Below, piece after piece: positions 40,900-60,308 of a stretch of 64,000 nucleotides of DNA. A program made the position numbers and the translations under genes. The notes below the pieces were generated by a model, which worked only from the letters and a program-made list of their open reading frames with translations, did not search any database and was not told the origin of the DNA. The number at the start of each line of letters is the position of its first letter. The stretch's first letter is position 1. Source of the DNA: Pseudoduganella dura (GTDB lineage Bacteria; Pseudomonadota; Gammaproteobacteria; Burkholderiales; Burkholderiaceae_D); assembly GCF_009727155.1 (NCBI RefSeq), contig NZ_WNWM01000002.1:3596001-3660000 (forward strand), written 5' to 3'.

Positions 40900-40973
40900 G
40901 CGGGTGTAGCTCAATGGTAGAGCAGGAGCTTCCCAAGCTTAAGACGAGGGTTCGATTCCCTTCACCCGCTCCA
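40900..40973 (+). tRNA. tRNA-Gly (anticodon CCC)
   Basis: A 74-nt cloverleaf with encoded CCA. Acceptor GCGGGTG / CACCCGC, D arm GCTC-AATGGTA-GAGC, anticodon loop TTCCCAA (anticodon CCC, reads GGG), T arm AGGGT-TCGATTC-CCTTC. Its 3' 47 bases (40927-40973) are the integration site used by the downstream elements, and the gene is intact because the element restores the 3' end. Confidence 0.97.
40927..40973 (+). other. attL core: 3' end of tRNA-Gly
   Basis: These 47 bases, from the anticodon stem to CCA, recur exactly at 52618-52664. Tyrosine-recombinase elements commonly use this part of a tRNA as attB. Confidence 0.9.
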
Positions 40974-41007
40974 TTGCGTAGATGTGCATTTTTCCTACAC
41001 TGTCTTG

Positions 41008-41034
41008 CTCCACAATCCACCTTTTACTCCACAA
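41008..41034 (+). repeat. CTCCACAA direct repeats (left arm-type sites, element 1)
   Basis: CTCCACAA at 41008-41015 and 41027-41034, 19 bp apart. The same octamer lies near the right attachment site (52505-52512 forward, 52566-52573 inverted). Placement on both sides of the core is what arm-type integrase binding sites would show. Confidence 0.5.
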
Positions 41035-41175
41035 AACAATTGTTCCTAGGGGAGCGTCCAGCTAGAACTTGGGTTTTCCACCGTGCTGTCGGGTTATAAT
41101 TGTTGTCAACTGCCTAACGATGTGTTGCCGCGCAGTTGAACAAACTCTTTGCTCATAACCTAAAAGTTATATACA

Positions 41176-41583
41176 ATGATCAGCCTCCTTATCACTCCCT
41201 CAGCGCAAAACGATCTAGATGAGTTGTGGGACATTGATGAGGATAGTGCAGCTGAGATTGAGACGGCGTTAGAGGAAATTTCGCATGATGCAACGCTCAT
41301 GGGACGTCTGACAGAGCGTCGGTTTCGGCACGTCCCGGCGCCGTCTTTTGATACAGATAGGTTTGTCGCCCTATGGCAAAAGGGATTAAATTTATATCGT
41401 TTGAAGTTCTGGGATTGGCAAGGTGGCATAGTGCCTTACCGTGTAATTTATGCACACAATCCGACAACGGACACGATGTACGTTCTTGCGGTCGTTTCAA
41501 GGGAATTTAATTATGACATCCGACACCCAATTGTCACCCGAGTTCGCACGGAGTATGAGCGGCTGGGTATTCCAACCTACTAG
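41176..41583 (+). CDS. RelE/ParE-superfamily toxin-like protein
   Basis: A 135-aa protein with the RelE/ParE pattern: N-terminal ITPSAQNDLDELWDIDEDSA helix pair, then LYRLKFWDW, VPYRVIYAH and VLAVVSREFNYD strands. RelE toxins are mRNA interferases (ParE members poison gyrase); the catalytic residues are not assignable by eye. First gene of a three-gene set, toxin first as in higBA. TATAAT at 41095-41100 may be its promoter. Lower GC than the chromosome, suggesting transfer. Confidence 0.72.
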   Translation: MISLLITPSAQNDLDELWDIDEDSAAEIETALEEISHDATLMGRLTERRFRHVPAPSFDTDRFVALWQKGLNLYRLKFWDWQGGIVPYRVIYAHNPTTDTMYVLAVVSREFNYDIRHPIVTRVRTEYERLGIPTY

Positions 41584-41995
41584 TATGTCGGCCACAAGTG
41601 TTACTGGGATTTGCTATACGCAAGTGACATTTGATATGGCTGCCGCAGCACCATCACATTCGATACACGGCACTTCCATTTCTGCCATCGTTGCAGAACG
41701 GGAGAAAGACCCACGTAAGGCTGCAGCATACGCTCGTGCACGTCAAAAATTGGCTGGCCGCCTTGCAGATGGTGAAGCGAGCTTAGTGCAATTGCGTCTT
41801 GCTAGTGGCATGTCTCAGTCACAACTAGCTAACGCTATGGGGAAAAAGCAGCCATATGTGGCTCGCCTTGAAACCGGAAGCAACGATGTACAACTGTCAA
41901 CTATTGAGTCGCTGGCCAAGGCTCTAGGCGTGCCAGTAAGTACAGTCTTTGCAGCAATCATGGCGTCTAGAAAAAAACAGGAAGAACAATCATGA
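41513..41995 (+). CDS. Helix-turn-helix antitoxin-like protein
   Basis: A 160-aa protein with an XRE-type HTH in the C-terminal half (LRLASGMSQSQLANAMGKKQ, then QPYVARLETG and STIESLAKALGVPVSTVF). The N-terminal ~90 residues are a Ser/Ala-rich domain with no motif. ATG 41513 (MTSDTQ) follows AAGGGAA; it overlaps the toxin gene by 71 bp in another frame, an unusually long overlap. Likely antitoxin and autorepressor; the stop overlaps the next gene as ATGA. Confidence 0.72.
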   Translation: MTSDTQLSPEFARSMSGWVFQPTSMSATSVTGICYTQVTFDMAAAAPSHSIHGTSISAIVAEREKDPRKAAAYARARQKLAGRLADGEASLVQLRLASGMSQSQLANAMGKKQPYVARLETGSNDVQLSTIESLAKALGVPVSTVFAAIMASRKKQEEQS

Positions 41996-42456
41996 CTTAC
42001 TGCCCACGTTTCATCCATACTATGTATTGCGATGACGTACGGCAGGAGATTGGTGGCAAAATGACTTTTGTCGGGGCGTATCAGTCGCAAATGGTGGCTG
42101 AACTTCCGGGCGAGTTAGTTTTGCCGAAGCTCTGCATTGTCGTTACTGCTCAGACCCCGCATGATCAGCCCTTCAAAGAAATGAAGGTGAAGTTGTATCA
42201 TGACGATGAGGTCATACAGGAATTGGATGTACCCACGGCCATGGATAGCACAGTAGCTATGGAGGACGAGGAAGGTGTGAATTTCCATGTAGTAGGGATA
42301 ATTATCACTTTACAGGGCCTACGTTTCCAGAAAAACTCAATGCTGCGGGTTCGAATGGAAACTGGAGACGAGGAACTGTCGGCCCCAGCGTTTCAAGTTG
42401 TGCTTAGAAAACCATTAGCCTCTGAATCTGAGATCGATGGATCTGGCATGCATTAG
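41992..42456 (+). CDS. Hypothetical protein, DUF6941-like, third gene of the toxin-antitoxin-like operon
   Basis: A 154-aa beta-rich protein with no signal peptide. The N-terminus MYCDDVRQEIGGKMTFVGAY and LPGELVLPKLCIVV resembles the uncharacterised DUF6941 family. It overlaps the HTH gene by 4 bp, so the three products are probably made together. A third gene in a toxin-antitoxin operon can be a chaperone, a second regulator or an effector; which one, the sequence does not say. Confidence 0.65.
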   Translation: MTYCPRFIHTMYCDDVRQEIGGKMTFVGAYQSQMVAELPGELVLPKLCIVVTAQTPHDQPFKEMKVKLYHDDEVIQELDVPTAMDSTVAMEDEEGVNFHVVGIIITLQGLRFQKNSMLRVRMETGDEELSAPAFQVVLRKPLASESEIDGSGMH

Positions 42457-42459
42457 CTT

Positions 42460-43497
42460 TTATTTGGTCGGCGTCACGATCTTGCCGCGCCGCAGGTAGT
42501 GCTTTTGCGTTGTCTTCACGCTGTCATGGCCTAGCAGATCGCGAGCTGCTTCCTCCCCGCGTCCATCGGCCGTATCATCCGCAGCTTTAGCCCGTAGGTC
42601 ATAGAACCGGAAGTTCTTGATGTCCTCTGCCAACTGCGGCTGCTTCTCCGCCGCCTGGTCGCGCGCTTTGTCAAACTGTGCTCGTAGCGCAGGCGCCGTA
42701 AGGCGCTTCCCATGATGGTTGACGAGCAGTGCTGCGGTTTTGATCGTATCCCCGGCCTTACGCGCCTGGATGCGCTCGACGAGCCTGGCCAGCTCGCCAA
42801 CAATCCTGATTCGCAGCGGCTGCTTTGTCTTTTCTTGCGTCACGATCAAGTGGCCCTCGATGATGTCGTGCTCGGTCATCTTTAACGCGTCCGCCGGGCG
42901 CTGGCCTGTCAGGTAAGCCAGATCCATTGCATCCCGTAGCGGAACGCTGGCAGCGTCCCAAACGGCCTTGTACACCGCATCACTGATGTACAAGGTCCGC
43001 CTCTGCAATGAGTGCCCTTGAATGCCCTCGCAGGGATTGGGCAGGTCGGTATAGCCCCACCCCCTGGCCTTGTTCCACATGACCGAGAAGACACGCTTGC
43101 AGCGGTTCGCGGTGGTCGGCTTGTCAGCATGGTCGTCCAGGAACTGCCGGACGTGCAGCGGCTTGATCTGGCTCAGCGGAGCATTGGCAAAAGACTCGAG
43201 CAGATGCTTGATGTCCGACCGCCACATCCGCGCGGAGCTGGCTGCCAGCTTCGGCAGCGCGTCGACCAAGTAGCGTTTGTACACGTCCGAAAAAGTGGCC
43301 CCGGCGCTGGCGGCCACCACGATGTTCAGCTCGGCATACTTCTTCAGGGCGAGGATGTAGTCGTCACCAAGCGCGATCTCCTTCCTCTTCCCTTCCTCGG
43401 TCTTCTGGTACATGTAGTAGTAGACCTTGCCGCTGCGCTGCGTCCGAGGATGCATGTGCGGCGGCATGTTCAGGTTACGAGTGTTTTTTCTTCCCAT
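42460..43497 (-). CDS. Tyrosine-recombinase integrase (element 1)
   Basis: A 345-aa phage-type integrase. The N-terminal AP2-like arm-binding region holds RTQRSGKVYYYMYQK, followed by a SAM-like core-binding domain, and the catalytic domain with Arg in AYLTGQRPADAL, FYDLRAKAADDT, the LLGHDSVKTTQKHYLRR box with the nucleophile Tyr near the C-terminus. I start at 43497 because AGGAG lies 5 bp upstream; ATG 43500 is too close. Its 3' end faces the tRNA attachment site but is separated from it by the three-gene TA-like operon. It overlaps the DUF4224-type gene by 23 bp. Confidence 0.92.
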   Translation of the reverse strand: MGRKNTRNLNMPPHMHPRTQRSGKVYYYMYQKTEEGKRKEIALGDDYILALKKYAELNIVVAASAGATFSDVYKRYLVDALPKLAASSARMWRSDIKHLLESFANAPLSQIKPLHVRQFLDDHADKPTTANRCKRVFSVMWNKARGWGYTDLPNPCEGIQGHSLQRRTLYISDAVYKAVWDAASVPLRDAMDLAYLTGQRPADALKMTEHDIIEGHLIVTQEKTKQPLRIRIVGELARLVERIQARKAGDTIKTAALLVNHHGKRLTAPALRAQFDKARDQAAEKQPQLAEDIKNFRFYDLRAKAADDTADGRGEEAARDLLGHDSVKTTQKHYLRRGKIVTPTK

Positions 43498-43696
43498 CAT
43501 TTCTCCTCGGCATAACCCATGTGTTTTCACGCGGCGCCTCTTTGCGCCCCTCGACTGCGGCGATAGTCACCACGGGGGCGCCTATGCCATTGATCCAGAA
43601 TGGAAGGCCCATCCGCCGCAGCTGCTCAATTTGCTTTGACTTTCTTCTCCAACCAGTCAGCCGTTCCAGTGCTTCCGGTGTCAGGAACGTGTCCAT
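43475..43696 (-). CDS. DUF4224-type phage protein (possible excisionase/regulator)
   Basis: A 73-aa protein, FLTPEALERLTGWRRKSKQ then LRRMGLPFWING, matching the DUF4224 family that sits beside integrases in many prophages. Small basic HTH-like proteins in this slot often direct excision; that role here is inference. Overlaps the integrase by 23 bp and the upstream gene by 16 bp. Confidence 0.75.
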   Translation of the reverse strand: MDTFLTPEALERLTGWRRKSKQIEQLRRMGLPFWINGIGAPVVTIAAVEGRKEAPRENTWVMPRRNDGKKKHS

Positions 43697-44787
43697 TCAA
43701 GCTCCCTTGCATGTTTGGTGTCATCCTGTGGCGCAGCGCCATGGTCGTCTTTTTCACCGACCCCGCTCAACTGGGCTGCACTCAGGCCTGAGAGCAGCCC
43801 CTTGATCACCGCGGCGGCCCTGCCAGCGATGTCACGCACGTCTGCTGCACCTTCACGGCCTGCGTGCTCCAGGTCGTTCAGCACCTGCGCTACGTCCACG
43901 GCCCGGACGCCCGTCGACGGCTCCAGCGTTGCGGCGCTATTGGTAGCATGCTGGCCACGTTCGACCAGGTCGCTTGCGACGTCCACGCCGGTTTGCCCCG
44001 CGAGTGCCTTGATTGGCTGCTCGATGTGCTCCTGCCGGCCGTAGCCGCGCGGCAGCCGGCGGTACAGCCAAAGCAGGGCGCTCAGCAGATCATCGGCCGC
44101 CTGGCCCGGCACGGCACCTCGTGCTCGGATCTGCGGCAGCGGCTGCTCCATGATGTGCCGGGCATGGCGCTCGCCGTCGACGCAGTGCGCCTCGACGTAC
44201 ATGGCCGCATCGGCCAGCGCACTCTGCCAGAGCTGTTTTGTTTGAGCCACGTCGTCGGCCGATTGCGCCACGGAGGTGGCCATGCTGGCGCGCAGCGAAT
44301 TGCGATCGGCGTTCGCGGCTTCGTATCGCTGCCAGCCCTGGTCGGCGCGCAGCTTCTCGGCGGCCAGTCGGCGGTGCAGCTCCAGCACTTCGGCGTTTTT
44401 GCCATCGGTGGGCATCGCAGTAGTGGCTACGTCTGGAGTTGTCGCAAGCGCCTTGATCGCGCTGCTGTAGCTGGCCACGCCGTATGCCATCCCGTTGAGG
44501 AACTCCTCGCTGCAGTCATCGCGCTTGAAGGTGTCGGCCATGATCGTATTCATCAGGGTGGCAGCCTCGGCCAGGCCGGCGGCGCGTGAGCCTTCCTCGC
44601 TCAGCAAGCTGTACAGCCCAGCGCGCGGGGCTCCATCGCCCAACAAGCTATCCAGCACGGCGAACGCATCCTTGCAGCGGCAGTACAGATCATGGCTGCC
44701 TTCATTGATGGTCGAGTCTTCCAGGTTGCGAAGGAGGGTGGCCACGTGTACGCCGGCGATCCGGCCGTTATTGTCAGTCTGGTTCAT
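43681..44787 (-). CDS. Hypothetical prophage protein, 368 aa
   Basis: No family recognised. Alpha-helical, acidic, Ala-rich, no signal peptide; the middle (about 130-180) is coiled-coil-like (LELHRRLAAEKLRADQGW). It is part of a leftward, tightly overlapping run: 4-bp overlap with the upstream membrane protein gene and 16-bp overlap downstream. Its place in an early-type leftward operon suggests an early phage gene of unknown role. Confidence 0.6.
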   Translation of the reverse strand: MNQTDNNGRIAGVHVATLLRNLEDSTINEGSHDLYCRCKDAFAVLDSLLGDGAPRAGLYSLLSEEGSRAAGLAEAATLMNTIMADTFKRDDCSEEFLNGMAYGVASYSSAIKALATTPDVATTAMPTDGKNAEVLELHRRLAAEKLRADQGWQRYEAANADRNSLRASMATSVAQSADDVAQTKQLWQSALADAAMYVEAHCVDGERHARHIMEQPLPQIRARGAVPGQAADDLLSALLWLYRRLPRGYGRQEHIEQPIKALAGQTGVDVASDLVERGQHATNSAATLEPSTGVRAVDVAQVLNDLEHAGREGAADVRDIAGRAAAVIKGLLSGLSAAQLSGVGEKDDHGAAPQDDTKHARELEWTRS

Positions 44788-45017
44788 TTCGCTTCCCCGT
44801 TCAAATGTGAGAAATTCTTACCTTTTCCTGCGCGCCGCGCGCGGCGCTCCAGGACATGTGATGCTGCGATCGCGCCGATGCCAACTGACAGACATAGGCC
44901 GTAGAAGCCATTTATTCCGAGGTGCACCACTGCCAGGCCCAGCAAGGCCCCCAAGAGGGCGCCGCCGAGGATGCCCAGGCCGGCGGCACGGAGGAATGCA
45001 TGCAGAGGCGTCCTCAT
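44784..45017 (-). CDS. Small two-helix membrane protein (prophage)
   Basis: A 77-aa protein with two hydrophobic segments (AAGLGILGGALLGALLGLAV and GLCLSVGIGAIAASHVL) and a basic C-terminus (RRARRAGKGKNF). Overlaps both neighbours by 4 bp (ATGA). Function unknown; a holin or superinfection-exclusion protein is conceivable, without evidence. Confidence 0.55.
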   Translation of the reverse strand: MRTPLHAFLRAAGLGILGGALLGALLGLAVVHLGINGFYGLCLSVGIGAIAASHVLERRARRAGKGKNFSHLNGEAK

Positions 45018-45298
45018 CGCGTCGCCTCCTTACATCCTTTGTGCGTGAGGCCATCGGCGGCCATGCGTGGCACTAAGCCCGTCGACGTGTGAGTGCTCAG
45101 GTATTCGCACCCGGTTTCGCTGTCGATGTAGACGTACGGCGCATACCCGAATCCGGCGCCTGGCGCTGGCGCTGGCTGTGGCGCTGCTGGCGCCGGATCA
45201 TTTGGCAGCGCGTTGAGCACGACGATCATCAGGAAGCCGGGCGGCGACCAGATGAACGTGTTGGCTAGCCAAGTGAATGTCATGGCCACGGCCGCCAA
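45014..45298 (-). CDS. Small protein with DUF6440-like domain (prophage)
   Basis: Up to 94 aa. The C-terminal part YVYIDSETGCEYLSTH ... GLVPRMAADG resembles DUF6440-type small phage proteins; the middle is Pro/Ala-rich; the N-terminus is hydrophobic. The first 86 bp are antisense to the start of the tail-fibre fragment; an internal ATG at 45227-45229 (MIVVLNALPN) would shrink the overlap to 17 bp and is a good alternative start. Confidence 0.5.
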   Translation of the reverse strand: MAAVAMTFTWLANTFIWSPPGFLMIVVLNALPNDPAPAAPQPAPAPGAGFGYAPYVYIDSETGCEYLSTHTSTGLVPRMAADGLTHKGCKEATR

Positions 45299-46004
45299 CA
45301 GCAGCGCAGATGCGGCTGCCTCCAGCGCAGGTAATGCCGCGACTAGTGCTGGTCAGGCGGAGATATTTGCCAATGCCGCATCGGTCTCAGCCGGCGTTCC
45401 GCTGTGGGTTTCGGGGACGAACTATGTTGTCAGCCCTACGCCCTCGGTTGTCGCCGATCCGAACGATTTTCGAACGTATCGGCGCCGGGTTGCGGGCGCG
45501 GGCTCGATAGTCCCCTCGCTTGACCCGACTAACTGGCAAGTGATTTCCGCAGGTGCCTATCCGCTCCTGCACGTGCGCGACGAAAAGCCAAGCGGTACAG
45601 GTGGAGGGGCTGCGTTCTTGGACGCGACGCAGACCCGCACCCTGAATACCGTTAAAACAAACAGCATTCCCGGGGCGTCGCTGTCGGCCAGCCAAATCAG
45701 CTTGCCTGCCGGCCGCTATCGCATCCATGGACGGGCGCCGGCGCTACTGGGAGGCCGCATGCAGGCATTTTTGTGGAATGTTACCGATTCATCGTATGCG
45801 TTGCGAGGCTCTAGCGAACTTGCGGCGAGTGGAGCAAGTTCTGCGTCAACGATATGCGGCGAGCTCGAAATCTCCACGACGAAAGTGTTTAGCTTACGCC
45901 ATTACACTGCTTCCCCGTCGTCTGATACTACCGCACTGGGTGGCCCGGTATCGTCTGGCCTGGGCGAGGTTTACAGTGAATTGTTTGTCGAGAAAGTCAG
46001 CTGA
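45213..46004 (+). pseudogene. Truncated phage tail-fibre protein
   Basis: A 263-aa C-terminal piece. The Ala/Ser-rich coil (NSSADAAASSAGNAATSAGQ) followed by VPLWVSGTNYVVS and DFRTYRRRVAGAG is the familiar tail-fibre shaft/insertion domain, ending in a beta-rich tip. The N-terminal baseplate-attachment half is missing: the frame opens abruptly antisense to a leftward early gene. This is best explained by a deletion joining early and late regions. The piece could still be translated from an internal ATG. Confidence 0.65.
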
Positions 46005-46438
46005 TGAAATACGTTACCTACGACGAAGATGGCAACCTTACCGGCAGCTTCTGCCAAGACTTACACCCTGACCACGCAGTGGCGTATATCGAGGTCAGCG
46101 AAGTGCAGCAGCAAGGCTGGCTTGCCTATCGTGCCAACGATGCGCGCGACGGCCTATACCAGCTGCCCGCCATGGAGGCGCCGGTAATGCCACCGGCAGC
46201 CTCGATCCCCATGCTGAACCTGCAGCTCGCGCTGATCGATGACGGCAAGCTCGTGCAGGCCGAGGCCATCATTGCCGAAATGCCGGGCGACGACGGCCTG
46301 CGTGCACGCGCGTACTGGGCCCGGGCGCAGACGGCGCGTCTCGACAACGACGTGGTGCAGGCGCTGTGGCCGCAGCTCTACGAGACCGACGAGGCGTTCC
46401 TGGCATCGTGGCGCCGCGCCGCAGAAATGAATCCGTAG
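46004..46438 (+). CDS. Tail-fibre assembly-like protein
   Basis: A 144-aa protein starting one base into the tail-fibre stop. The N-terminus (YVTYDEDGNLTGSF, HAVAYIEVSEVQQQGWLAY) resembles proteins encoded just after tail fibres; the C-terminal half is helical. Position suggests a fibre chaperone or a second tip protein. An intrinsic terminator follows. Confidence 0.6.
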   Translation: MKYVTYDEDGNLTGSFCQDLHPDHAVAYIEVSEVQQQGWLAYRANDARDGLYQLPAMEAPVMPPAASIPMLNLQLALIDDGKLVQAEAIIAEMPGDDGLRARAYWARAQTARLDNDVVQALWPQLYETDEAFLASWRRAAEMNP

Positions 46439-46480
46439 CCTTGTCTGTGTTGACCAGCAATTTACCCTCCCAGCAATTCC

Positions 46481-46503
46481 AACCCGCTTCGGCGGGTTTT
46501 TTT
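46481..46503 (+). terminator. Terminator after the tail-fibre genes
   Basis: Stem AACCCGC / GCGGGTT with TTCG loop, followed by a run of T. Separates the tail genes from the lysis cassette. Confidence 0.88.
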
Positions 46504-46513
46504 ATTCCTACCC

Positions 46514-46954
46514 ATGAAAGCACATCCCATGAGCTTCGAAAGCGCCGGCACCGCAGCGGCAATCAAATTCTTCGGTGCCGCCGTCGTCGCTTCGGCGCTG
46601 GGCACGGCGCTCGGCTTCGCCCTGATGTGGCCGCGCAGCGCGCGCGAGGCAGTCGTGCGCTTCACGTGCGCCATCTGCAGCTCGTTCACCTTCGGCCCGC
46701 TGCTGGCCATGGCCGCGCATTCCTGGTGGCCCGGCCTGTTCACGTCGGCGCGCGAGTTCGGCACGCTGTACGGCGGCGACCCGCTGGCCGGCCTGCTCGT
46801 GGCGGCATCGCCGTTCATGGTCCTGGCCGCGCTGCCCGCGTGGTGGCTGCTGGGCGGTCTGGTGCTTTGGCTGGAACGTCGCCGCGGCAAGGACCTGGGC
46901 GAGCTGGCGCGCGATGTCGCAGCCGATGTTCGCAGTGTACGGGAGGGCCTGTGA
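46514..46954 (+). CDS. Putative holin-type membrane protein
   Basis: A 146-aa protein with three to four hydrophobic segments (about 15-40, 55-75, 90-120) and a charged cytoplasmic C-terminus (LERRRGKDLGELARD). It directly precedes the endolysin, its last base being the first base of the endolysin ATG. Holin is inferred from topology and position. A second ATG five codons in is possible. Confidence 0.65.
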   Translation: MKAHPMSFESAGTAAAIKFFGAAVVASALGTALGFALMWPRSAREAVVRFTCAICSSFTFGPLLAMAAHSWWPGLFTSAREFGTLYGGDPLAGLLVAASPFMVLAALPAWWLLGGLVLWLERRRGKDLGELARDVAADVRSVREGL

Positions 46955-47589
46955 TGCACATCACCCCTGAACAACTGCTGAAGATCGTGCCGAGCGTCGG
47001 CCAGGCCGCGGGCGTCTACACCACCGCCCTGAACGCTGCGGCCGACCGTTTCCTGATCAACACGCCGAAGCGCATGGCCCACTTCCTGGCGCAGATCGCG
47101 CATGAGAGCGGCCAGCTGGAGCGCTTCCGCGAGGGCATGAGTTACAGCGCATCACGGCTGCGCGACGTGTGGCCGGCCCGGTTCCGCAGCATCGAGATCG
47201 CCATGCTGTACCAGCGCAACCCGGAGAAGCTGGCGAACTACGTGTATGCCAACCGCATGGGTAACGGCGACGAGAAGAGCGGCGACGGCTGGCGGTACCG
47301 CGGCGCCGGCTGGATCCAGATTACTGGCAAGAACAACCACCGCGAAGTGGCCGGGGCCCTGGCCATCACCGGCGACGTCGGCGCGTGGCTATCGACCGTG
47401 AATGGCGCTGCGACGTCGGCAGCCTGGTTTTGGTGGAAAAGCGGCTGCAACACGCTGGCCGACCGGGGCGACGTCGACGCGATCTCGGATGTGATCAACA
47501 TCGGCCGGCGCACGGAGCGGCTGGGTGATTCTGTCGGCTACGACAAGCGCGCGAGCCTGACGAAATACTGCCTGGCGGTGCTGTCGTGA
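46954..47589 (+). CDS. GH19 chitinase-like endolysin
   Basis: A 211-aa glycoside hydrolase family 19 endolysin that cuts peptidoglycan at lysis. The catalytic region HFLAQIAHESGQLERF (Glu in AHESG) and YRGAGWIQITGKNNH are clear; no signal peptide, so it depends on a holin. ATG 46954; the longer upstream frame is antisense/out-of-frame noise over the holin gene. Intact by length. Confidence 0.9.
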   Translation: MHITPEQLLKIVPSVGQAAGVYTTALNAAADRFLINTPKRMAHFLAQIAHESGQLERFREGMSYSASRLRDVWPARFRSIEIAMLYQRNPEKLANYVYANRMGNGDEKSGDGWRYRGAGWIQITGKNNHREVAGALAITGDVGAWLSTVNGAATSAAWFWWKSGCNTLADRGDVDAISDVINIGRRTERLGDSVGYDKRASLTKYCLAVLS

Positions 47590-47942
47590 ATCTGCAGGCG
47601 CTCATGGCTGCCGTGGTGCTGTGCGTGGCCGGCACGGTCTGCGGCTTCTGGTACGGCACGAACGTCGGCCGTGACGGCGAAATCGCCAAGCAGGCCGCCG
47701 TCGACAAGGCCACGGCCGACACCCGCAAACTCGCCATGGAAGGGGCGGCAGATGCTATCTCGAAAATCGTCGTGCGCAACACCACCGTGCAGGGCCGGGT
47801 CGAAACCATCGTCCGCGACAATCCTGTGTATCGCGATTGCAGCCATCCTGCTGACGTCGTGCGCAACATTAACGAAGCCCTCACCGGTCGGGCCGGGCCC
47901 GCTGGTAATCGCGGCGTGCCCGGAGCTGACCCCGCTGAATGA
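47586..47942 (+). CDS. Inner-membrane spanin Rz-like
   Basis: A 118-aa protein starting with GTG that overlaps the endolysin stop (GTGA). One N-terminal membrane helix (LMAAVVLCVAGTVCGFWYG) and a charged helical periplasmic part (DGEIAKQAAVDKATADTRKL) fit an i-spanin. An o-spanin frame is embedded inside it. Confidence 0.75.
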   Translation: MNLQALMAAVVLCVAGTVCGFWYGTNVGRDGEIAKQAAVDKATADTRKLAMEGAADAISKIVVRNTTVQGRVETIVRDNPVYRDCSHPADVVRNINEALTGRAGPAGNRGVPGADPAE

Positions 47943-51414: not shown

Positions 51415-51441
51415 CGAGTCGGGCTGCATTTTGACGCCGCA

Positions 51442-52455
51442 TTAGGAAATTTCGGGCGGCTTCGGCTGTTGACCTAGTCGCCCGCGAGTAGGGTCGAGGC
51501 GCTTGGCTACTGCCTCGGCCCGAGCTAGCCAGTCCCTCAGTGCCGGAGCGACCTCACCACCAGCTTTTGCTGAAGCCCTAATGTGTGCTGCATATGCGCG
51601 GATCGCCGTCGCATCGCGCCAAGCGCTGGCTTCCACCACCAGCATGCGCTCTCTTTCGGCGGCCGCTTCCTGTTCTTCCTGTATGCGCTGCTGCTCTTCT
51701 TCGCGCCGCCGCGCCGCTTCCGCCGCCACGGCGCGCTCCTGTTCTCGCATCTGGGCAGCCGCCTCGTCGCGCTGCCGCTGCTCTGCATATGCGGCACGCC
51801 CGGTGCGCTGCAACGCGATCGAGCGGTGGATCCGGACCATCACGTCGTTCAGTTGCTGCTCAAGCGGCCGGTCGGCGCTGTCCTCGATCTTGGTCTCATT
51901 GACAAACATTCGCAGGCAGACGGGTGGCTGCCGCGCCAGGGCGGCGCGCCGTCCGAGCTTGTTCGTCTGCTTGACCTGGCCAACATTCTGGGCCAGACGC
52001 AGAGCCACTTCATCGACTCCGTCGCTGACCTTGGCCCTCCGGCTCCTGATCGAGATATGCAGGCCCCGCACTTCGCACGCTTTGAGTACTGCATCCCACA
52101 ATCGTAGGGCACGATCGGCAAATTCGATCGAAACGCGCATGGGCAGCACGCCGGCATCTATTTCCAAAAAGCCGCGTTCCATATACTTATTCCAGCTCGG
52201 TCCCAAGATGAGCTGCGGCCGTTCAGCTGGCTTGCGTGGCCGCTCCCGCTCCTCTCTATTAAGCTGCAGGGCAGCGATCTCCTTGCGTACAGCCGCCGCA
52301 GCAGCTTTAACTAAGGGATGGGGTTTTAAAAGTTCGTCCGGCACCGTAATGACATTCTCCGGGCGCGCCTCGAACGCAATGCGCTCTTGCAGCCAGGCGG
52401 CGGTCGTTTCAGCGGTTTTTTGCGTGGTCGGCATGATGTGATTCTCCGCTGACAT
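51442..52455 (-). CDS. Right-end hypothetical protein of element 1, coiled-coil C-terminus
   Basis: A 337-aa protein of a family I have seen beside integration sites, with no assigned function. N-terminal motif LLKPHPLVKAAAAAVRKE, a globular centre (YMERGFLEIDAGVLPMRVS; DRALRLWDAVLKACEVRGLH), and a highly charged coiled coil at about 235-300 (REQERAVAAEAARRREEEQQ). ATG 52453-52455 has GAGGACC upstream; ATG seven codons later is possible. A broken second copy exists at 56436-56945, next to the second attachment site, so the gene travels with this end of the element. Confidence 0.65.
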   Translation of the reverse strand: MSAENHIMPTTQKTAETTAAWLQERIAFEARPENVITVPDELLKPHPLVKAAAAAVRKEIAALQLNREERERPRKPAERPQLILGPSWNKYMERGFLEIDAGVLPMRVSIEFADRALRLWDAVLKACEVRGLHISIRSRRAKVSDGVDEVALRLAQNVGQVKQTNKLGRRAALARQPPVCLRMFVNETKIEDSADRPLEQQLNDVMVRIHRSIALQRTGRAAYAEQRQRDEAAAQMREQERAVAAEAARRREEEQQRIQEEQEAAAERERMLVVEASAWRDATAIRAYAAHIRASAKAGGEVAPALRDWLARAEAVAKRLDPTRGRLGQQPKPPEIS

Positions 52456-52503
52456 CAGGTCCTCAGGCAAGAGGATTAGAGGCACCCAAGCGTACCCTTA
52501 GTC

Positions 52504-52574
52504 GCTCCACAAACATAATTGGAACCGCACAAATGCTGGGTTCTATAAGGTATAATTTCGCCGTTTTGTGGAGC
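52504..52574. repeat. GCTCCACAAA inverted repeat next to attR (element 1)
   Basis: GCTCCACAAA (52504-52513) and TTTGTGGAGC (52565-52574) are perfect complements 51 bp apart, ending 43 bp before the core. The pair and the sequence between are conserved at 56995-57064 beside the next attachment site. The CTCCACAA octamer also occurs twice beside attL. Confidence 0.65.
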
Positions 52575-52617
52575 GGAAAACGCAATCGAACACGCATGGT
52601 TGAGCCGTTCTCCGGGC

Positions 52618-52664
52618 AGCTTCCCAAGCTTAAGACGAGGGTTCGATTCCCTTCACCCGCTCCA
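52618..52664 (+). other. attR of element 1 / attL of element 2 (tRNA-Gly 3' end copy)
   Basis: 47 bases identical to 40927-40973, with CCA at the end but no 5' half, so not a tRNA gene. It bounds an 11.7-kb element. Confidence 0.92.
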
Positions 52665-52691
52665 GTATCCATGCGGTTTCCCGCAAATCTG

Positions 52692-52722
52692 CTAGTTCCG
52701 CAATTCTGGACTAGTTCCGCAA
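52692..52722 (+). repeat. CTAGTTCCGCAA direct repeat (left arm of element 2)
   Basis: CTAGTTCCGCAA at 52692-52703 and 52711-52722, exactly 19 bp apart, the same spacing as the CTCCACAA pair beside the first attachment site but with another sequence. Arm-type integrase sites are the simplest reading. Confidence 0.5.
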
Positions 52723-52725
52723 AGG

Positions 52726-53540
52726 TCATTTCGTCGGCGCTACGACCTTGCCCCGCCGCAGGTAATGCCGCCTTGTCGTCTGCACGTTCTCATGCCCCAG
52801 CAGGTCGCTCGCCGCCTGGTCGCCACGCACGTCAGACGTATCGTCAGCCGCCCTCGCGCGCAGATCGTAGAACCAGAACGTACGCACCTGCTCGGCCAGC
52901 TCCGGATGCCTTTCGATGGCCGCGTCGCGCGCTTGATCGAACTGGTAGCGCAGCGCCGGGCCGGTTGCGCGTTTGCCGTGCGTGTGCACCAGCAGCGCGG
53001 CGGTCACGATCGGCTTCAGCCGCTTCCGTGCTCGGATGCGCTCCATCAGCTCGGCCAGCTTGCCGGTGATTTCGATGCGCAGCGGCTTGCTGGTCTTGTT
53101 CTGCTTGATGACCAGGTACGCGCCCTCAATATTCTGCTCGGTGAGCTTCAGCGCGTCGCCAGGGCGCTGCCCGGTCAGATAGGCAAGGTCCATGGCGTCG
53201 CGCAGCGGCTCGGCCGCGTACTGCTGGACCAGGTCGAAAATATTGTCCGTGATGTAGACCAGCCGCTTTTCGAGCGAGAAGCACCTGATGCCTTCACATG
53301 GGTTGGCGAGATCCGTATAGCCCCAGGCGCGGGCGTGGTTCCAGATCGTGGAGAACACGCGCTTGCAGCGGTTGGCCGTCGTGGGGATATCGCGCAGCTC
53401 GTCAAGGAAACCTGCGATATCGGTTGGCCGTATCAGGTCGACCGGCGCCTTGTCGAAGTACTCGCGCAGGTGCTTGATGGTCGACCTGTATGTGTTCCGC
53501 ATGTCTTCCCCAGGCGCGGCAGCTCGGTGACGAGGTCCAG
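52726..53540 (-). pseudogene. Integrase remnant of element 2 (5'-truncated, frameshifted)
   Basis: The core-binding and catalytic domains of a tyrosine integrase closely related to the one at 42460-43497 (shared TTANRCKRVFS, LAYLTGQRP, DLLGH, HYLRRGK). The N-terminal arm-binding domain, roughly 75 residues, is absent: homology stops at 53540 where a DnaC-like gene on the other strand begins. A frameshift lies between LDLVTELPRLGK (to 53508) and the next in-frame block MRNTYRSTIKHL. The stop codon is 61 bp from the attachment core, the layout expected before cargo insertion. Confidence 0.85.
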
Positions 53541-54053
53541 GGCAGGAGAAGGCGCTCGCCTCCGCGAAGAGATATGCGGCGAACTTCGATGAGGCCCTGT
53601 TGCACGGCACGTCGCTGATCTTCTGCGGGACGATCGGCACCGGGAAGACGCACTTGGCCGTGGCCATCGCACACGAAGTCATGGCGCGCGGCCGGCAGGC
53701 GGTGTTCGTGAAGACGATGCGGGCGATCGATGCCGTGAAGGAGACGTATGCCCGGGCAGCGCGCAAACGAAAGCCCAGGTGATCCGCGACTTCATCGAGC
53801 CCGAGCTGCTGATCCTCGACGAGGCAGGTATGCAGCGCGGTACGGATGAAGAGAAGAGCATTCTCTTTGAGATCATCGACGGGCGTTACGAGCTGTCCCG
53901 GCCGTCGATTCTGATGACAAACCTCGCCCTGCCAGCCCTGGAGGAGATGATCGGCGAACGCGTGCTCTATCGCCTTCGGGAAGGCAACGGCCGGCAGGTG
54001 GTGTTCGAATGGGAGTCGCACCGCAAGCAGCGTGTCGCCGAAAAAGCACTTTA
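53531..54053 (+). pseudogene. DnaC/IstB-like helicase-loader remnant
   Basis: AAA+ ATPase of the phage replication type, in two frames. Frame 1 (53531-53782): KRYAANFDEALLHGTSLIF and Walker A GTIGTGKTHLA. Frame 2 (from 53779): LLILDEAGMQRGTDEE (Walker B) to VFEWESHRKQR. The N-terminal part is missing at the junction with the integrase relic and a frameshift separates the halves near 53770-53780. A transposon IstB is less likely, as no transposase is nearby. Confidence 0.8.
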
Positions 54054-54137
54054 AACCGAGTGGCGCGAAAGTGGCGGGGGCCACCTTCGCAGCTCGCATG
54101 GTTAAGCCATTTGCAGATTATTTGGAATCATCAGGGA

Positions 54138-54872
54138 TCAATAGCGTAAGGATTTGCGTCGCGCAACTGCCGACAGGATTCCGAGTCCAGCAAGGAGAGT
54201 AATCCAGGTGTTAGGCTCTGGCACCGCTACAACATTCACATAAAGTTGGCCTGAAAAATACACTTCAACAGGAGCGTTGCTATGGTTGTGGTAATAGGAA
54301 CTCAAAGTTCTCTCAAACCCGCTGCTAAAGTACCCCGTGTCAATACCGCATATGCCAAAAGAACAATCGTTACTCGAAATATGCGCGTAACCCTCCGCAT
54401 TGCTATTCAGTTGATAGTTAATATATTCTGAGTTAGCGCCGCCGCTGGTAAGAAAGGAAATTCCGGTATTGGGCATAACTAAAACGGGAAGAGAGTACTT
54501 TATACCGATATATGCTGACCCGCTGCCATTTGTGTGCGCCTCAGCACGCAAATTGCCTTGACCATCAAATGACCATGACGCAAAAGTACCATCAAGCTCA
54601 TAGGTATCACTCATTGATAAATCGCCGACGACTACACCCGAATTTTGTTGCGTAATGTCTAAAGTATTTGAATCGAAGCGAATTGCCCAAAAGCCAAATG
54701 CTTTACTAAAATTGGGGGCAAGTGGTAAATAACTATCAGTAGTGTTACCATCGTAAAGTGTGTACTGGAAATTTTTAAGCGACGCTTCAGCAGATACTCC
54801 TGCCATAGCAGAGGTGCTAAAGGTAGCAGATAAAGTAATTATTGGTAATAAATATTTATTCAAGGAAATCAT
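54138..54872 (-). CDS. PEP-CTERM sorted exported protein (AT-rich)
   Basis: A 244-aa secreted protein: signal peptide (about 1-24, ending SAMAG), a beta-rich body with Asn/Ser/Gly-rich sequence, and a C-terminal VPEPNTWITLLAGLGIL plus Arg-rich end, the PEP-CTERM sorting signal cut by exosortase. ATG at 54870-54872 chosen because it opens the signal peptide. GC content is far below the host average and it lies inside the element 2 relic, so probably acquired. Function unknown. Confidence 0.78.
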   Translation of the reverse strand: MISLNKYLLPIITLSATFSTSAMAGVSAEASLKNFQYTLYDGNTTDSYLPLAPNFSKAFGFWAIRFDSNTLDITQQNSGVVVGDLSMSDTYELDGTFASWSFDGQGNLRAEAHTNGSGSAYIGIKYSLPVLVMPNTGISFLTSGGANSEYINYQLNSNAEGYAHISSNDCSFGICGIDTGYFSSGFERTLSSYYHNHSNAPVEVYFSGQLYVNVVAVPEPNTWITLLAGLGILSAVARRKSLRY

Positions 54873-55246
54873 AATTTTTACTTTGAGGTAAAGAAAGTAG
54901 AAGAAATCAGATTTTACATGTTCACACACAAAGAATCCTTGCTAAATTCTGTAACCGTAAAAACGGGAGAAAGCGGCCCGTATAACATTCTCAGCTGCAT
55001 TCCTATGTAGCTTGTAGACGATCGAGATTATCTGTAACAGCAGGAGAGAGCATCAAAAAAGACAGAGGATGCTGCTCGAAGCCGTGGGTGTTTCTGCTGG
55101 GCAATCGTCTCTCTTCAAGTATGGAAATGCCGGACTACTTTGCATTGGTCACTCGACACGCCATGGCTACCTGTTGAGACTTCCAAAGGACCGGTTCGCT
55201 GCGTGTTTGATGTCGAAAACCTTCCTGACAACGAGGAGGAAAAACC
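54873..55246 (+). other. AT-rich stretch without a convincing gene
   Basis: Short frames here (for example 55069-55254) have no family features and unlikely composition. The end contains AGGAGGA at about 55234-55240, the ribosome-binding site of the broken antiterminator gene. It presumably also holds the promoter of the PEP-CTERM gene on the minus strand. Confidence 0.4.
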
Positions 55247-55670
55247 ATGAATGATCGTCTTTTGAACCAGCTCTGCCTGGACTGGGTGCACTGGTGCTAC
55301 ACGCGCCGCTACTACATCGCGGCAGGCTGAAATCGCAGCTCGGCGCAATGCAACCGAGCAAAGTCCGCGAAGCGCCGGACGCCCGCAATAACGCCAATAT
55401 GCAGTTCTTCAACATGGCTGTGCACACGCTGGCGGACATGAAAGAGCACCAGGATGCGATGGTGTGCTTCAACCTGCACTACGTCGAGCAGGCTGACAAC
55501 ATCAAACGGCGCGCGGACGAGCTGGGGATCAGCCGGCCGCGTATTACAACCGCGCCAAGGCATACGCTCGGAAGGCATACGCTCTTTCGCAAAGCCTGAA
55601 AGCAGCGCATCTGGCCGGTGCCGGCGCGACTGCCAGCAGGGCGGGGGAGGTGCATCAGGCCACTGTGTAA
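55247..55670 (+). pseudogene. DUF1133-like phage antiterminator remnant
   Basis: Reads MNDRLLNQLCLDWVHWCYTR then YYIAAG and stop; continues in another frame from LKSQLGAMQPSKVREAPDAR through AVHTLADMKEHQDAM and ADELGISRP; then in the third frame YYNRAKAYARKAYALSQSL to the stop at 55668. Joined, these make a roughly 135-residue protein like DUF1133 late-gene antiterminators. Two frameshifts (about 55328 and 55538) inactivate it. A strong AGGAGGA precedes the ATG. Confidence 0.65.
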
Positions 55671-55799
55671 AGGCGCGGTTAGACAAATTAGTTCGTGACT
55701 CGCCTTTACACAATGGCCTAAAATCGCCTCAGTTTCGATAGTCTCAAAAACTATCGCCGAAACAAATTGCTTTTTACGAGATACGTCTGAGCACCTGAA

Positions 55800-55828
55800 C
55801 GCCCGCGCTTCAAACCGCGGGCGTTTTT
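55800..55828 (+). terminator. Intrinsic terminator in element 2
   Basis: Stem CGCCCGCG / CGCGGGCG with an 8-base loop and five T. It is followed at once by an 11-bp perfect inverted repeat GCGTTTGGCGG / CCGCCAAACGC (55829-55839 and 55860-55870). Confidence 0.8.
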
Positions 55829-55890
55829 GCGTTTGGCGGTTGATTCCTCCCCGTTGAATCCGCCAAACGCACCCATTCCCGCGAGGCTTC

Positions 55891-56010
55891 ACGACCACGA
55901 CCACGCACCCGGCGAAAGAGACGGTTCGCGAGTACATGGGGCGGCGCATTGAATCGCCCGAGCCGCCGCCAACGCCGGAAGAGGTCCGCCGCCAGCTCGG
56001 GTGGACCTGA
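55891..56010 (+). pseudogene. Short phage-like ORF without a standard start
   Basis: Codons from 55891 read HPAKETVREYMGRRIESPEP then PPTPEEVRRQLGWT and stop, resembling small phage proteins with a PPTPEE-RRxLGW ending. No ATG/GTG/TTG opens the frame after the GAGG at 55883-55886; an ACG sits where a start would be. Probably a decayed or non-canonically started gene. Confidence 0.35.
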
Positions 56011-56073
56011 TCTCGGAAGCACGTCGACCTGACCGCCGCGGCAACCTGAACGACATCGATACCTGAGGAAGCA

Positions 56074-56388
56074 ATGCGCTTATCCGCCTACCCTGGCCAC
56101 CCCGACTACAAGCGGGAGTGGCTGCCTTGTCACGTATTCCTGAACGGCGAGCTGATCGAGGGCTGCGTGCACGCCGACTACGAGCGCTGCCAGGTGTCGG
56201 TTCAGGTGAGCACGCGCGATGGCGACGTCGTGCTTGATGAAAACCACTACATCGCCACGAAGTTCCTGACCGGCCGGGTCGAGTTCAGGCGCGACTGGAA
56301 GCACGTCAACGCAGTCGGCTTCGACGCCTGGATGCGTGACCGCATCGAAACCGCACACCAAGCATTTATGAAAAGGACATCCGCATGA
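56074..56388 (+). CDS. Hypothetical phage protein, 104 aa
   Basis: Intact short reading frame with GAGGAAG just upstream. Content MRLSAYPGHPDYKREW, FLNGELIEGCVHADY and VVLDENHYIATKFLTGRVEF looks like a folded beta protein; no family recognised. It overlaps by 4 bp the start of a second phage frame (MTIRLLSARGGFDANTI, from 56385) that is cut off after 17 codons by the junction at about 56436. Confidence 0.6.
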   Translation: MRLSAYPGHPDYKREWLPCHVFLNGELIEGCVHADYERCQVSVQVSTRDGDVVLDENHYIATKFLTGRVEFRRDWKHVNAVGFDAWMRDRIETAHQAFMKRTSA

Positions 56389-56435
56389 CGATTCGACTGC
56401 TCAGCGCCCGCGGCGGCTTTGACGCCAATACCATC

Positions 56436-56945
56436 ATGGACCTCGACTTGGTCGACCTTTTCAGCCAGCCGCAGCGTAACCCAGTCGATTTCGTTGCTGA
56501 CGTTGACCCGTCGATCCCCGGCTGAGACGCGCATGCCGCGTGCCTCGCAAGCCTTGATCACAGCATTTCGCAGCCGCAGCGAGCGATCAACCGATTCGAT
56601 GGCAACTCGCATTGGAAGTGCCTCTGGATCACTTTCCATAATGCCACGCTCCAGGTAGTACCGCCAGTTCGGTTTCTCTAGGGCGGCCCAGATTATCTGC
56701 GGTGGGGCGTTACGGTCGCGTACCGCGTCTGCTTCTCCCGGTTCAGACTGCAGGCCGGCAATCTCGGCACGCACAGCCGCAGCCGCAGCCGCAGTCTTGA
56801 CGAGAGGATGAGGATTCACAAGTTCCGCTGGCACGTGCACGGCATTCTCTAGCAGGGCTTCGAAAGTGATGCGCTCCTGCAGCCAGGCGGCGGTCGTTTC
56901 GGCGGCTTATTGCGTGATTGGCATGATGGGATTCTCCGCTGACAT
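56436..56945 (-). pseudogene. Broken second copy of the right-end hypothetical gene
   Basis: Homologous to 51442-52455: shares VPAELVNPHPLVKTAA, YYLERGIMESDPEALPMRV and DRSLRLRNAVIKACEARGM. It is inactivated by a TAA at codon 13 (MSAENPIMPITQ then stop) and by loss of the coiled-coil C-terminus, where homology ends at about 56436 and a phage structural frame begins on the other strand. The upstream sequence and inverted repeat are also duplicated. Confidence 0.85.
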
Positions 56946-56994
56946 TAGGTCCTCAGGCAAGAGGATTAGAGGCACCCGAGCCGACCTTTAGGCC

Positions 56995-57064
56995 GCTCCA
57001 CAAACATAATTGGAACCGCACAAATGCTGGGTTCCATAAGTATAATTTCGCCGTTTTGTGGAGC
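56995..57064. repeat. GCTCCACAAA inverted repeat beside the second attachment site
   Basis: Same arms as 52504-52574, here 50 bp apart and 43 bp before the core. The block 56931-57154 matches 52441-52664 with only scattered differences (roughly 15 by eye). Confidence 0.65.
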
Positions 57065-57107
57065 GGAAAACGCAATCGAACACGCATGGTTGAGCCGTTT
57101 CCCGGAC

Positions 57108-57154
57108 AGCTTCCCGAGCTTAAGACAAGGGTACGATTCCCATCACCCGCTCCA
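57108..57154 (+). other. Degenerate attachment site (right end of element 2)
   Basis: 47-base copy of the tRNA-Gly 3' end with four substitutions (three of them in the T arm/variable part). It ends an approximately 4.5-kb element that starts at 52618. Confidence 0.85.
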
Positions 57155-57610
57155 GATTTCAGGTAGCTTTTGCCATTTCCGGTAGTTCCCCACTTCTCTC
57201 GTTGTTCAGCGCTTCCCTCGAACGCATGGCCGTACCATGGCAGCTCTGCTGCTTGGAAGCGGGTGGATCATGCTAGTTGATCATTCCGTGATCATAGAGT
57301 TCGTAAAGGGGAAGGTACTTTCGGCCGTGTCCTGGCCAGGGGCCGGAATCCGTCGAAAGTTTCATGGGAATATTTTGAAGGGCAGGGAAGTCTGAAAGTC
57401 GCGAGTGTTCTACGCAAAGCCGTCAGCTTGACAGGATTTTTTCGGTACAAAATTACCCTTGGAAGTTGAGTCGCAACATCATGCTACGCATGCAGTTGGG
57501 TTGGCCTGAAATTGATGGCCCGGAATCCGCGGAGTTCAATCCTGTGCAACGTAGGCAGAACGTCCAGATCCCCGGGCCGATTCATCAGTTCTGCCTGTTT
57601 TTAGCTGGCG
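57155..57610 (+). other. Gene-poor stretch after the second attachment site
   Basis: No gene supported on either strand. GGTAGCTTTTGCCA and GGTAGTTCCCCAC just after the core are a loose, decayed echo of the TTCCGCAA arm repeats at the previous site. The rest is presumably a relic of element 3. Confidence 0.35.
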
Positions 57611-58387
57611 TCAGCTGCGAGCCGAACGTTTGCGCCAGGCCGATCCGCCCAGCAGCAACATGCCGGCACCGAACATTGCATAGGTGGCCGGTTCCGGTAC
57701 CGGTGCGGTGTGGAATGTCATCGTCACCGTGGATGCCCAAGTATTTGCATAAGACTCTTCAATCAAGTCGTTGTTGCTTGATCGCGCGGCGCGCGCAAAA
57801 GCATCTTGATACGAATACAGGGAAAAATAGGAGCCATCGTTCGAATTGATGTCTCCGCCGCCGATTCTTTCCAGATCGAGATCAGCGGAAGTCGTCGCGG
57901 CGCCGTTGAGATTCACAAACCTTTCGGTATCAAAGCGGTCGCCGTAGACATGGCTGCCATTTCCCCGAATTTCCCCGAAGTCGACATGCATCATAATCGC
58001 ATTGTTCGTATAGCCGCCCGGTTGACCGGTACGCAGTTCGCCCATAAATGTCACATCAAGTGTTACGCCGGTCAGCCTTTGCCCCGATGCCAGATCGAAC
58101 CTGTAACCTTCGATGGCCATCATGCCTGTCTTGTCAACTCCACCAGGGTAATAGATGTCGTCAGTAATTCGTGGCGCATTGTCGTGAGCTGCGTATGCCC
58201 CGCTCTCTAGTGCAAATGAGTCGAACGAAATGGTCGTTTCAGAAGCCGATTGCGACACAAGGCTGACTGTCGGATTCGGGGTTAAACTTTTGATTGAAAC
58301 GTTGTCGAAGCGCCAGGTTTCGGCATGAGCAAGCGGCGACATCAGTATGGCTGCAGCAGCGATCAACGGGGGCGCAAAATTTCTCAT
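57611..58387 (-). CDS. PEP-CTERM sorted exported protein
   Basis: A 258-aa secreted protein: signal peptide (about 1-22, ending LAHAE), a beta-rich body (TWRFDNVSIKSLTP, GVTLDVTFMGELRTG), and C-terminal VPEPATYAMFGAGMLLLGG with Arg/Lys end. Function unknown. It is the only intact gene between the second and third attachment-site copies. Processing requires an exosortase encoded elsewhere. Confidence 0.85.
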   Translation of the reverse strand: MRNFAPPLIAAAAILMSPLAHAETWRFDNVSIKSLTPNPTVSLVSQSASETTISFDSFALESGAYAAHDNAPRITDDIYYPGGVDKTGMMAIEGYRFDLASGQRLTGVTLDVTFMGELRTGQPGGYTNNAIMMHVDFGEIRGNGSHVYGDRFDTERFVNLNGAATTSADLDLERIGGGDINSNDGSYFSLYSYQDAFARAARSSNNDLIEESYANTWASTVTMTFHTAPVPEPATYAMFGAGMLLLGGSAWRKRSARS

Positions 58388-58787
58388 GAAATCCTCGGTT
58401 TGGGTTAATGGAGTACTACAAATTCCTTATGAATATAACATCATTTACTTCTGCAAATCTCACGAATTGTCACCTGCTGAATAGCGTTGGCAGCCGTACT
58501 GCTCGATACAGGCATTATTTGAAATGCTTTGCGAATTGTTGCGTGTCTCTGGTTTAAATGCCAGGTCTCTAGTCCGCCGTTTTAGCATTGCCGCAAAGCA
58601 TGGGAAAGCGCGCAACTTTATATTTCCAATGCGCAATTAAACGGATATAAAATCGGGCTCCAGTACACCGTTGCACACTAAAAAAGTTGCCTCGGCGACT
58701 GTTCGTTGGAAGAGCTGAAGGCTAATTCGGCGCAATTGATTAATTAAAATTATCTTTTAGTACGCATTATTGTTGGGTTTTCAGTCC
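58388..58787 (-). other. Intergenic region upstream of the PEP-CTERM gene
   Basis: AT-rich, no open frame supported. It must contain the promoter of the leftward PEP-CTERM gene; I cannot place it confidently. Confidence 0.3.
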
Positions 58788-58831
58788 AGCTTCCCGAACT
58801 TGAGACCAGGATTCATCCCTCCACCGCTCCA
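58788..58831 (+). other. Strongly decayed attachment-site copy
   Basis: AGCTTCCCGAACTTGAGACC begins like the tRNA-Gly copy (5 mismatches in the first ~26 aligned bases), then has three deleted bases and ends CACCGCTCCA. It sits 9 bases before the stop of the next minus-strand gene. I read it as the oldest right end of the array; a chance match is possible. Confidence 0.55.
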
Positions 58832-60220: not shown

Positions 60221-60308
60221 CCAGCACAAGTCCGCATCAAGCTTGAGCCGCCGCGCATGCACGTGCGCGGCGGTGGCTCGTCATTCCAGATACCCGAGGT
60301 ACGCAACA

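Follow-up and report, generated by a model that had tools for sequence, protein, structure and literature searches.

Organization of the tRNA-Gly(CCC) locus

In the 64,000-nucleotide stretch of the Pseudoduganella dura genome analysed here (hereafter the window; contig NZ_WNWM01000002.1, positions 3,596,001 to 3,660,000), a tRNA-Gly(CCC) gene is followed by a ladder of copies of its own 3' end. The gene, called by both ARAGORN and Rfam, lies at 40900-40973 (+; the Rfam call ends at 40970), and its final 47 bases (40927-40973, +) form the attachment (att) core adjoining the first element. This core recurs on the same strand at 52618-52664 as an exact copy (47/47), at 57108-57154 with four substitutions (43/47), and at 58788-58831 in a decayed form (37/47 with gaps). 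These copies, hereafter rungs 2, 3, and 4, delimit three elements, E1 (40974-52664), E2 (52665-57154), and E3 (57155-58831), the spacings being 11,691, 4,490, and 1,680 bases from the tRNA outward. A first-pass annotation of the sequence had reported an exact, a four-substitution, and a decayed recurrence at intervals of about 11.7, 4.5, and 1.7 kb; ungapped and gapped scans confirm the copies, and the measured spacings agree. The array has an intact tRNA gene at one end and several displaced fragments in the same orientation, and it very probably consists of three or more elements that share one phage-type integrase family and were each inserted, by their own tyrosine integrases, in the 3' half of tRNA-Gly(CCC).

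The rungs differ from the tRNA at 0, 4, and 10 positions with increasing distance, and in rung 3 all four substitutions lead away from the sequence of the tRNA. Without gaps, rung 4 matches the core at 30/47 positions, against 25/47 for the best place elsewhere on either strand of the window; with gaps, 37 of 47 positions match and the score is 49, against 26 for the best segment of the window overlapping no rung. The gaps of rung 4 fall where this tRNA reads GATTCCC and that of four close relatives reads GATCCCC, possibly the older allele of the host. A whole-genome search with the tRNA as query returned four places, namely the tRNA, rungs 2 and 3, and one tRNA-Gly(TCC) gene elsewhere, rung 4 being too worn for this search to detect.

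E1, a prophage with a probable internal deletion

E1 is the least decayed member of the array. Two direct TCCACAA repeats (41009-41034, +; at 41009 and 41028) follow the core, and an inverted pair of the same motif (52506-52572; 52506 on the + strand and 52566 on the - strand) precedes the next core. This layout is also observed in Massilia aurea, in the genome G030, and on the viral contig L136. In Massilia frigida it is seen on the left side, and TCCCCAA-type variants occur in G004, G052, and G005. The motif TCC[ACG]CAA is found 19 times in the window, counting both strands, and eight of these lie at the ends of E1 and E2. Their position and pairing suggest that the TCCACAA-type repeats are arm sites of the integrase.

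Between the core and the integrase gene lie a ParE-type toxin gene (41176-41583, +) and an open reading frame (ORF) for a helix-turn-helix (HTH) protein (41450-41995, +), which probably form a toxin-antitoxin pair, as well as a gene for a DUF6941 protein (41992-42456, +). The tyrosine recombinase gene int1 (42460-43530, -) is open and transcribed towards the tRNA, and its product is 84% identical to the integrase of L136. ORFs with no Pfam match at the curated cut-off follow (43681-45298, -), and then a tail fibre gene (45213-46004, +), an ORF with no family match that could be assigned to tail-fibre assembly by position only (46004-46438, +), an endolysin gene (46366-47589, +), and an Rz-like spanin gene (47586-47942, +). 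From the lysis genes to the right end, E1 carries a gene for a heparinase II/III-like protein of 1029 amino acids (48325-51414, +) and an ORF without family match (51442-52485, -), whose start region is homologous to the right end of E2.

E1 combines a phage-type integrase that has close kin on viral contigs with structural and lysis genes, and it is a prophage. As orf43681 and orf44784 show partial matches directly after the integrase of the viral contig L138, and as the endolysin region is matched by the sequence of L136 immediately upstream of the core of that contig, E1 appears to have lost its middle. The deletion junction probably lies near 45.2 kb.

E2, E3, and the DNA beyond rung 4

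E2, of the same integrase family, is more broken than E1. Two direct TCCGCAA repeats (52697-52722, +; at 52697 and 52716) precede int2 (52726-53496, -), which lacks its N-terminal part and shares 62% identity with int1 over residues 101-356. The place where the N-terminus of int2 would be is occupied by fragments of an IS21-type IstB gene (53600-54054, +). Besides other broken ORFs, E2 contains a PEP-CTERM protein gene (54138-54929, -), a shortened relative of orf51442-52485 (56247-56840, -), and a right arm (56877-57107, +) with an inverted TCCACAA pair at 56997 (+) and 57056 (-). E3 is a worn remnant, the longest ORF of which is another PEP-CTERM protein gene (57611-58387, -). Its first 60 bases match the left end of E2 at 33/60 positions at the same offset from the core, which is the best plus-strand match of this 60-mer in the window after itself. 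No integrase was recognised in E3, and the two ORFs scanned gave no match in PHROGs.

Phage genes other than integrases are recognised in E1 only. PHROGs and Pfam revealed no structural or lysis gene among the main ORFs of E2 and E3, and no relaxase or type IV secretion gene is present among the Pfam matches of the ORFs scanned, a subset of all ORFs; the remnants may have lost genes of either kind.

Beyond rung 4, a further PEP-CTERM protein gene (58841-59623, -) precedes a gene for a TonB-dependent receptor (59891-62342, +; start codon placed by similarity). The 1,060 bases between rung 4 and the TonB gene, including the PEP-CTERM gene, are missing from the empty site of relatives (see below). 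Other DNA has therefore also been inserted past rung 4, and the array does not end at 58831 as first annotated; a fourth, oldest member may lie beyond this position.

The integration site in related genomes

The site was compared in 73 relatives of the genus, one genome per species and partly drafts, over at most 20 kb on the downstream side of the tRNA (15 kb or less in G004, G024, G054, G055, G061, and G071). In seven of these the site is empty, with the TonB-receptor gene directly after the tRNA: the gene starts 68-118 bases past the tRNA in G003, G011, G023, G027, G063, and G069 and, as read from the sequence, about 60 bases past it in G031. In G008, G010, G017, and G026, the TonB gene follows after 0.7-3 kb of other DNA, which in G008 includes a displaced core. 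No TonB match was found in the stretch searched for the other 62 relatives.

Displaced 3' copies, defined as ungapped matches with at most five substitutions in 31 bases, a pattern too strict to register a copy as decayed as rung 4, occur in 7/73 relatives (G002, G004, G005, G008, G051, G052, and G067). Those of G002 and G067 are the halves of an intron-interrupted tRNA. A displaced 3' fragment lies 1.5-10 kb from the tRNA in G004, G005, G051, G052, and M. aurea, and about 37.7 kb from it in G030. With the 31-base pattern, two displaced fragments were found in none of the 73 stretches. The comparison with related genomes proposed in the first-pass annotation thus yields empty sites and single displaced copies, but no relative with two.

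Integrase family and viral relatives

The family of int1 and int2 is a phage-type tyrosine recombinase family. Matches at E <= 1e-60 are present in 7 of 74 genomes of the genus, and lie within 3.2 kb of tRNA-Gly(CCC) or a displaced copy in G000 (twice), G004, G030, G051, and G052; that of G024 is near a contig end, so that its location is uninformative, and that of G028 is on a different contig from the tRNA. Relatives of the integrase are encoded antisense, at most 3.2 kb downstream of tRNA-Gly(CCC), in G004, G030, G051, G052, G005 (a weaker match), M. frigida, and M. aurea, the last two being the named genomes from the genome scan, both of which carry the integrase beside this tRNA.

Eleven viral loci on IMG/VR contigs encode related integrases, seven of them on contigs of 40-46 kb. 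Four have a whole tRNA beside the integrase, one of these being the sequence of M. frigida itself (L142 falls entirely within the M. frigida locus L087, so that the two count as one observation). Two, L136 and L144, have the attP-like arrangement of a core and an integrase with no whole tRNA, and the right arm of L136, 77% like that of E1, runs into the core. The remaining five show neither in the stretch examined. Among known phage records, 145 carry relatives of the integrase, all below 60% identity. In the integrase tree, which omits the loci L142 and L143 and rows with fewer than 150 aligned residues, int1 belongs to a supported clade of 10 rows and int2 lies outside it. Relatives of int2 occur at two loci of viral contigs, in both cases on contigs that int1 had already identified.

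The stretch from core to integrase looks like a variable cargo slot in this family, represented by E1 and by the loci L119, L122, L082, L136, L144, and L138. It contains the ParE/HTH pair and the DUF6941 gene in E1 (41176-42456 of the window), a Fic gene in G030, a type II restriction-modification system in G051, CopG/BrnT-like matches below the cut-off in G052, a PtuB-like HNH gene in L144, a pair with one weak DrmA match in L136, and genes without match in L138. L135, L137, and L145 probably belong here too, the slot position being assumed as no core is seen in the stretch. In E2, G004, M. frigida, M. aurea, L139, and L140 the slot is empty, the integrase lying 61-74 bases from the core. The element of G004 (L121, 942-6783) spans about 5.7 kb between tRNA-Gly(CCC) and a displaced core and encodes an integrase of the same family and a Rep_trans replication initiator; it looks like a small, satellite-like user of the site.

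Near-identical right arms of E1 and E2

Rungs 2 and 3 are each preceded by a near-identical right arm of about 280 bases. The right ends of E1 and E2 are homologous over about 715 bases, with 51-68% identity in the first six 75-column blocks and 91-95% in the last four. The zone of high identity comprises the last 278 alignment columns, core included, and identity beside it is about 62%. As arms with 91-95% identity are combined with integrases that are only 62% identical and fall in separate parts of the tree, the right arms and the third core have either been exchanged between E1 and E2 or share a younger ancestor than the rest of the elements. The changes in rung 3 are consequently no measure of the age of E2, and may date the exchange instead of the integration.

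Proposed history of the array and alternative explanations

We propose that E3, E2, and E1 arrived in this order, each entering at the tRNA. Each insertion would have restored the tRNA with an element-borne 3' end and pushed the previous 3' fragment outward, so that the copies at 52618, 57108, and 58788 would be displaced attR sites. Later decay would have involved an internal deletion in E1, truncation beside the IS21-type relic in E2, and the loss of nearly everything in E3. As rung 2 is unchanged while rung 3 has four changes, and as int1 is open while int2 is truncated, E1 is favoured as the latest arrival; entry at the tRNA side is likewise suggested by the decay. E2 and E3 are most likely prophages as well, but could be small satellites with the same type of integrase.

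The first-pass annotation had explained the ladder by successive integrations of related elements with progressively broken gene content. Both points stand: the integrase is intact in E1, truncated in E2, and absent from E3, and the empty site in 7/73 relatives, the two integrase lineages, and the family-type arm repeats at the rungs argue for separate integrations. The idea that distance from the tRNA records age fares less well. The decay gradient fits the newest element being nearest the tRNA, but the right ends of E1 and E2, at 91-95% identity, blur the clock. The suggested alignment of cores and flanks bears out the cores and reveals similar arms at rungs 2 and 3, but only a weak likeness upstream of rung 4. 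The shared arms of about 280 bases, the relatedness of the integrases, the paired repeats, the foreign DNA past 58831, and the identity of E1 as a prophage go beyond that annotation.

Several observations weigh against the proposed history. The 30 bases 5' of rung 4 resemble those 5' of rungs 2 and 3 at 17/30 positions, a likeness equalled or beaten at 28 and 19 of 63,971 positions, respectively. No conspecific strain with fewer elements was seen. When the differences between the E1 and E2 arms are polarised over 250 bases, 11 appear derived in E2, 9 in E1, and 1 is ambiguous, with much of the region poorly aligned to the outgroups and no clear direction. E2 has TCCGCAA repeats on the left and TCCACAA repeats on the right, and may thus be a mosaic or a fusion. 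As PHROGs searches with ten ORFs of E2, E3, and the flank were nearly empty (a single ORF of E2, 56074-56388, has weak matches, to families of unknown function), the case for a phage origin of E2 and E3 depends on int2 and the element ends. At the outer boundary, the 331 bases preceding the TonB gene yielded no core copy, and this spacer matches the empty-site spacers of relatives no better than shuffled sequence does.

Of the other explanations, the one that we take most seriously, while still considering it unlikely, is that E2 combines two elements, fused through deletion of the inner rung that they had in common, in which case the ladder would undercount the insertions. This would account for the different repeat types on its two sides and for a right arm 91-95% like that of E1 despite the 62% identity of the integrases. 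However, orf56247 and the right arm occur in the same order as in E1, exchange of the arms alone accounts for the same data, and single repeats also vary within other members. It is rather improbable that E2 and E3 are small satellites with a phage-type integrase instead of prophages. The G004 member of about 5.7 kb with its Rep_trans gene provides a model, and neither E2 nor E3 has yielded a phage structural or lysis gene, but the right end of E2 shares orf56247, in the same order, with E1. Integrative conjugative or mobilizable islands often make arrays at tRNA genes, and yet they are a most implausible source of this one, given the tail fibre, endolysin, and spanin genes of E1, the 40-46 kb contigs that carry 7 of the 11 related viral loci, and the lack of any conjugation gene among the Pfam matches of the ORFs scanned.

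Spatial order would not be time order if newer phages had used displaced attR fragments instead of the tRNA, for example if E2 had entered the attR of E1. Integration at the attL or attR of a resident prophage is a route discussed (PMC9934374) for the tandem prophages of Mycobacterium abscessus, and rung 2 is a perfect site; moreover, the fact that the four changes all fall on rung 3 would by itself argue only weakly against such entry. Nevertheless, the 47/47 match of rung 2 compared with the four changes of rung 3, together with an open int1 and a truncated int2, makes this sequence of events distinctly unlikely. Finally, the copy at 58788 could be a chance resemblance, leaving two elements only, as rung 4 needs gaps to align and its upstream flank matches weakly. 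With a gapped score of 49 against a background of 26, and with the end at 57155 matching the left end of E2 at 33/60 positions at the same offset, the best plus-strand match in the window, chance is extremely improbable, and we set it aside.

PEP-CTERM genes in the array

One PEP-CTERM gene is kept in each of E2, E3, and the stretch beyond rung 4. The genome of 6.95 Mb has 83 PEP-CTERM matches, three of them between 54138 and 59623. Three such genes in 7.2 kb correspond to a Poisson probability of 1e-4, which is post hoc, the stretch having been chosen after the genes were seen. In the 1.3-kb remnant of G008, the longest ORF is another PEP-CTERM gene. Across 74 loci, six matches to the PEP-CTERM pattern start within 3 kb of the tRNA, compared with nine in the rest, three of which are those of this window (Poisson 0.008).

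It is possible that secreted-protein cargo is retained at this site. A more elaborate and rather doubtful reading is that the site acts as a ratchet, at which phages arrive, phage genes decay, secreted-protein cargo stays, and neighbouring att arms become alike through local exchange; at its old end, the array would then have been reduced to PEP-CTERM (exosortase-sorted) genes. Two points count against a ratchet: three of the six near-tRNA matches look like one orthologous gene, and, with the pattern used, no match starting within 3 kb of the tRNA is present in the inserts of G005, G010, G017, and G026.

Comparison with known tandem arrays

Tandem SGI1 arrays reportedly consist of head-to-tail islands at one attachment site. 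The present array is likewise head-to-tail at one attachment site, but SGI1 arrays are, to judge by title, made of copies of one island, whereas the members here belong to different integrase lineages. The Islander report (PMC4383910) lists, beside 3919 islands, 125 tandems with at least two members and 4 with at least three. As in those arrays, several islands share one tRNA gene here, each with its own displaced fragment; under the Islander rule that each member has its own integrase, this locus would not count as a triple, since the integrase of E2 is truncated and that of E3 was not found. The prophages prophiT36-2a and prophiT36-2b of M. abscessus, described in PMC9934374, are in tandem at a tRNA-Thr gene and similarly represent different phages integrated successively at one tRNA attB. 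Both were detected as virions, whereas the array described here has at least three members, unequally decayed. In PMC2605562, tRNA-Gly is placed inside Xylella prophages and not as an integration site. In literature listings and the papers cited, we recognised nothing on this locus under Massilia prophages with tRNA-Gly, tandem prophages, or tRNA-gene accretion, nor under defence cargo beside attP or PEP-CTERM genes in prophages and islands.

Tandem islands at tRNA genes are known and triples are rare; the process seen here is a known one, of which the array is an unusually long and clear case. With a stack of three, and with empty and single states in the genus, decay can be read in order at one address, including which parts are lost early, which persist, and whether sequence passes between neighbouring att sites. 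The array further delineates an integrase family together with the repeats at the element ends, so that the excision of E1 becomes directly testable.

Other observations

A group II intron of about 2.6 kb splits tRNA-Gly(CCC) after base 39 in G067, G002, and G161, the last from another genus (L200:4402-7106; L199, reverse complement, 2901-5605; L201:1420-4117). Each copy matches Rfam RF02012 and RF00029, and the scanned ORF of G067 has reverse transcriptase, maturase, and HNH domains. A complete tRNA-Gly(CCC) lies inside the intron, just before the intron protein gene. As the split halves in G002 are of the type of its relatives, whereas the internal tRNA is of the type of the intron, the spare tRNA copy appears to travel with the intron. 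This looks like an intron counterpart of tRNA-dependent lysogeny (PMC10865867); judging from literature listings, nothing recognisable on a tRNA-carrying intron was found. The intron is present in 3 of 294 genomes of the family, at 84% identity or more over most of a 619-base query; three more genomes match about 100-130 bases of the query only, and no tRNA was found in the stretches examined there.

Elsewhere in the window, Rfam reports a Betaproteobacteria_toxic_sRNA (RF02278) at 11392-11452 (-). G047, G036, and G037 (L125, L127, and L126) carry further tRNA-Gly-like sequences at other places, 86-91% identical to tRNA-Gly(CCC).

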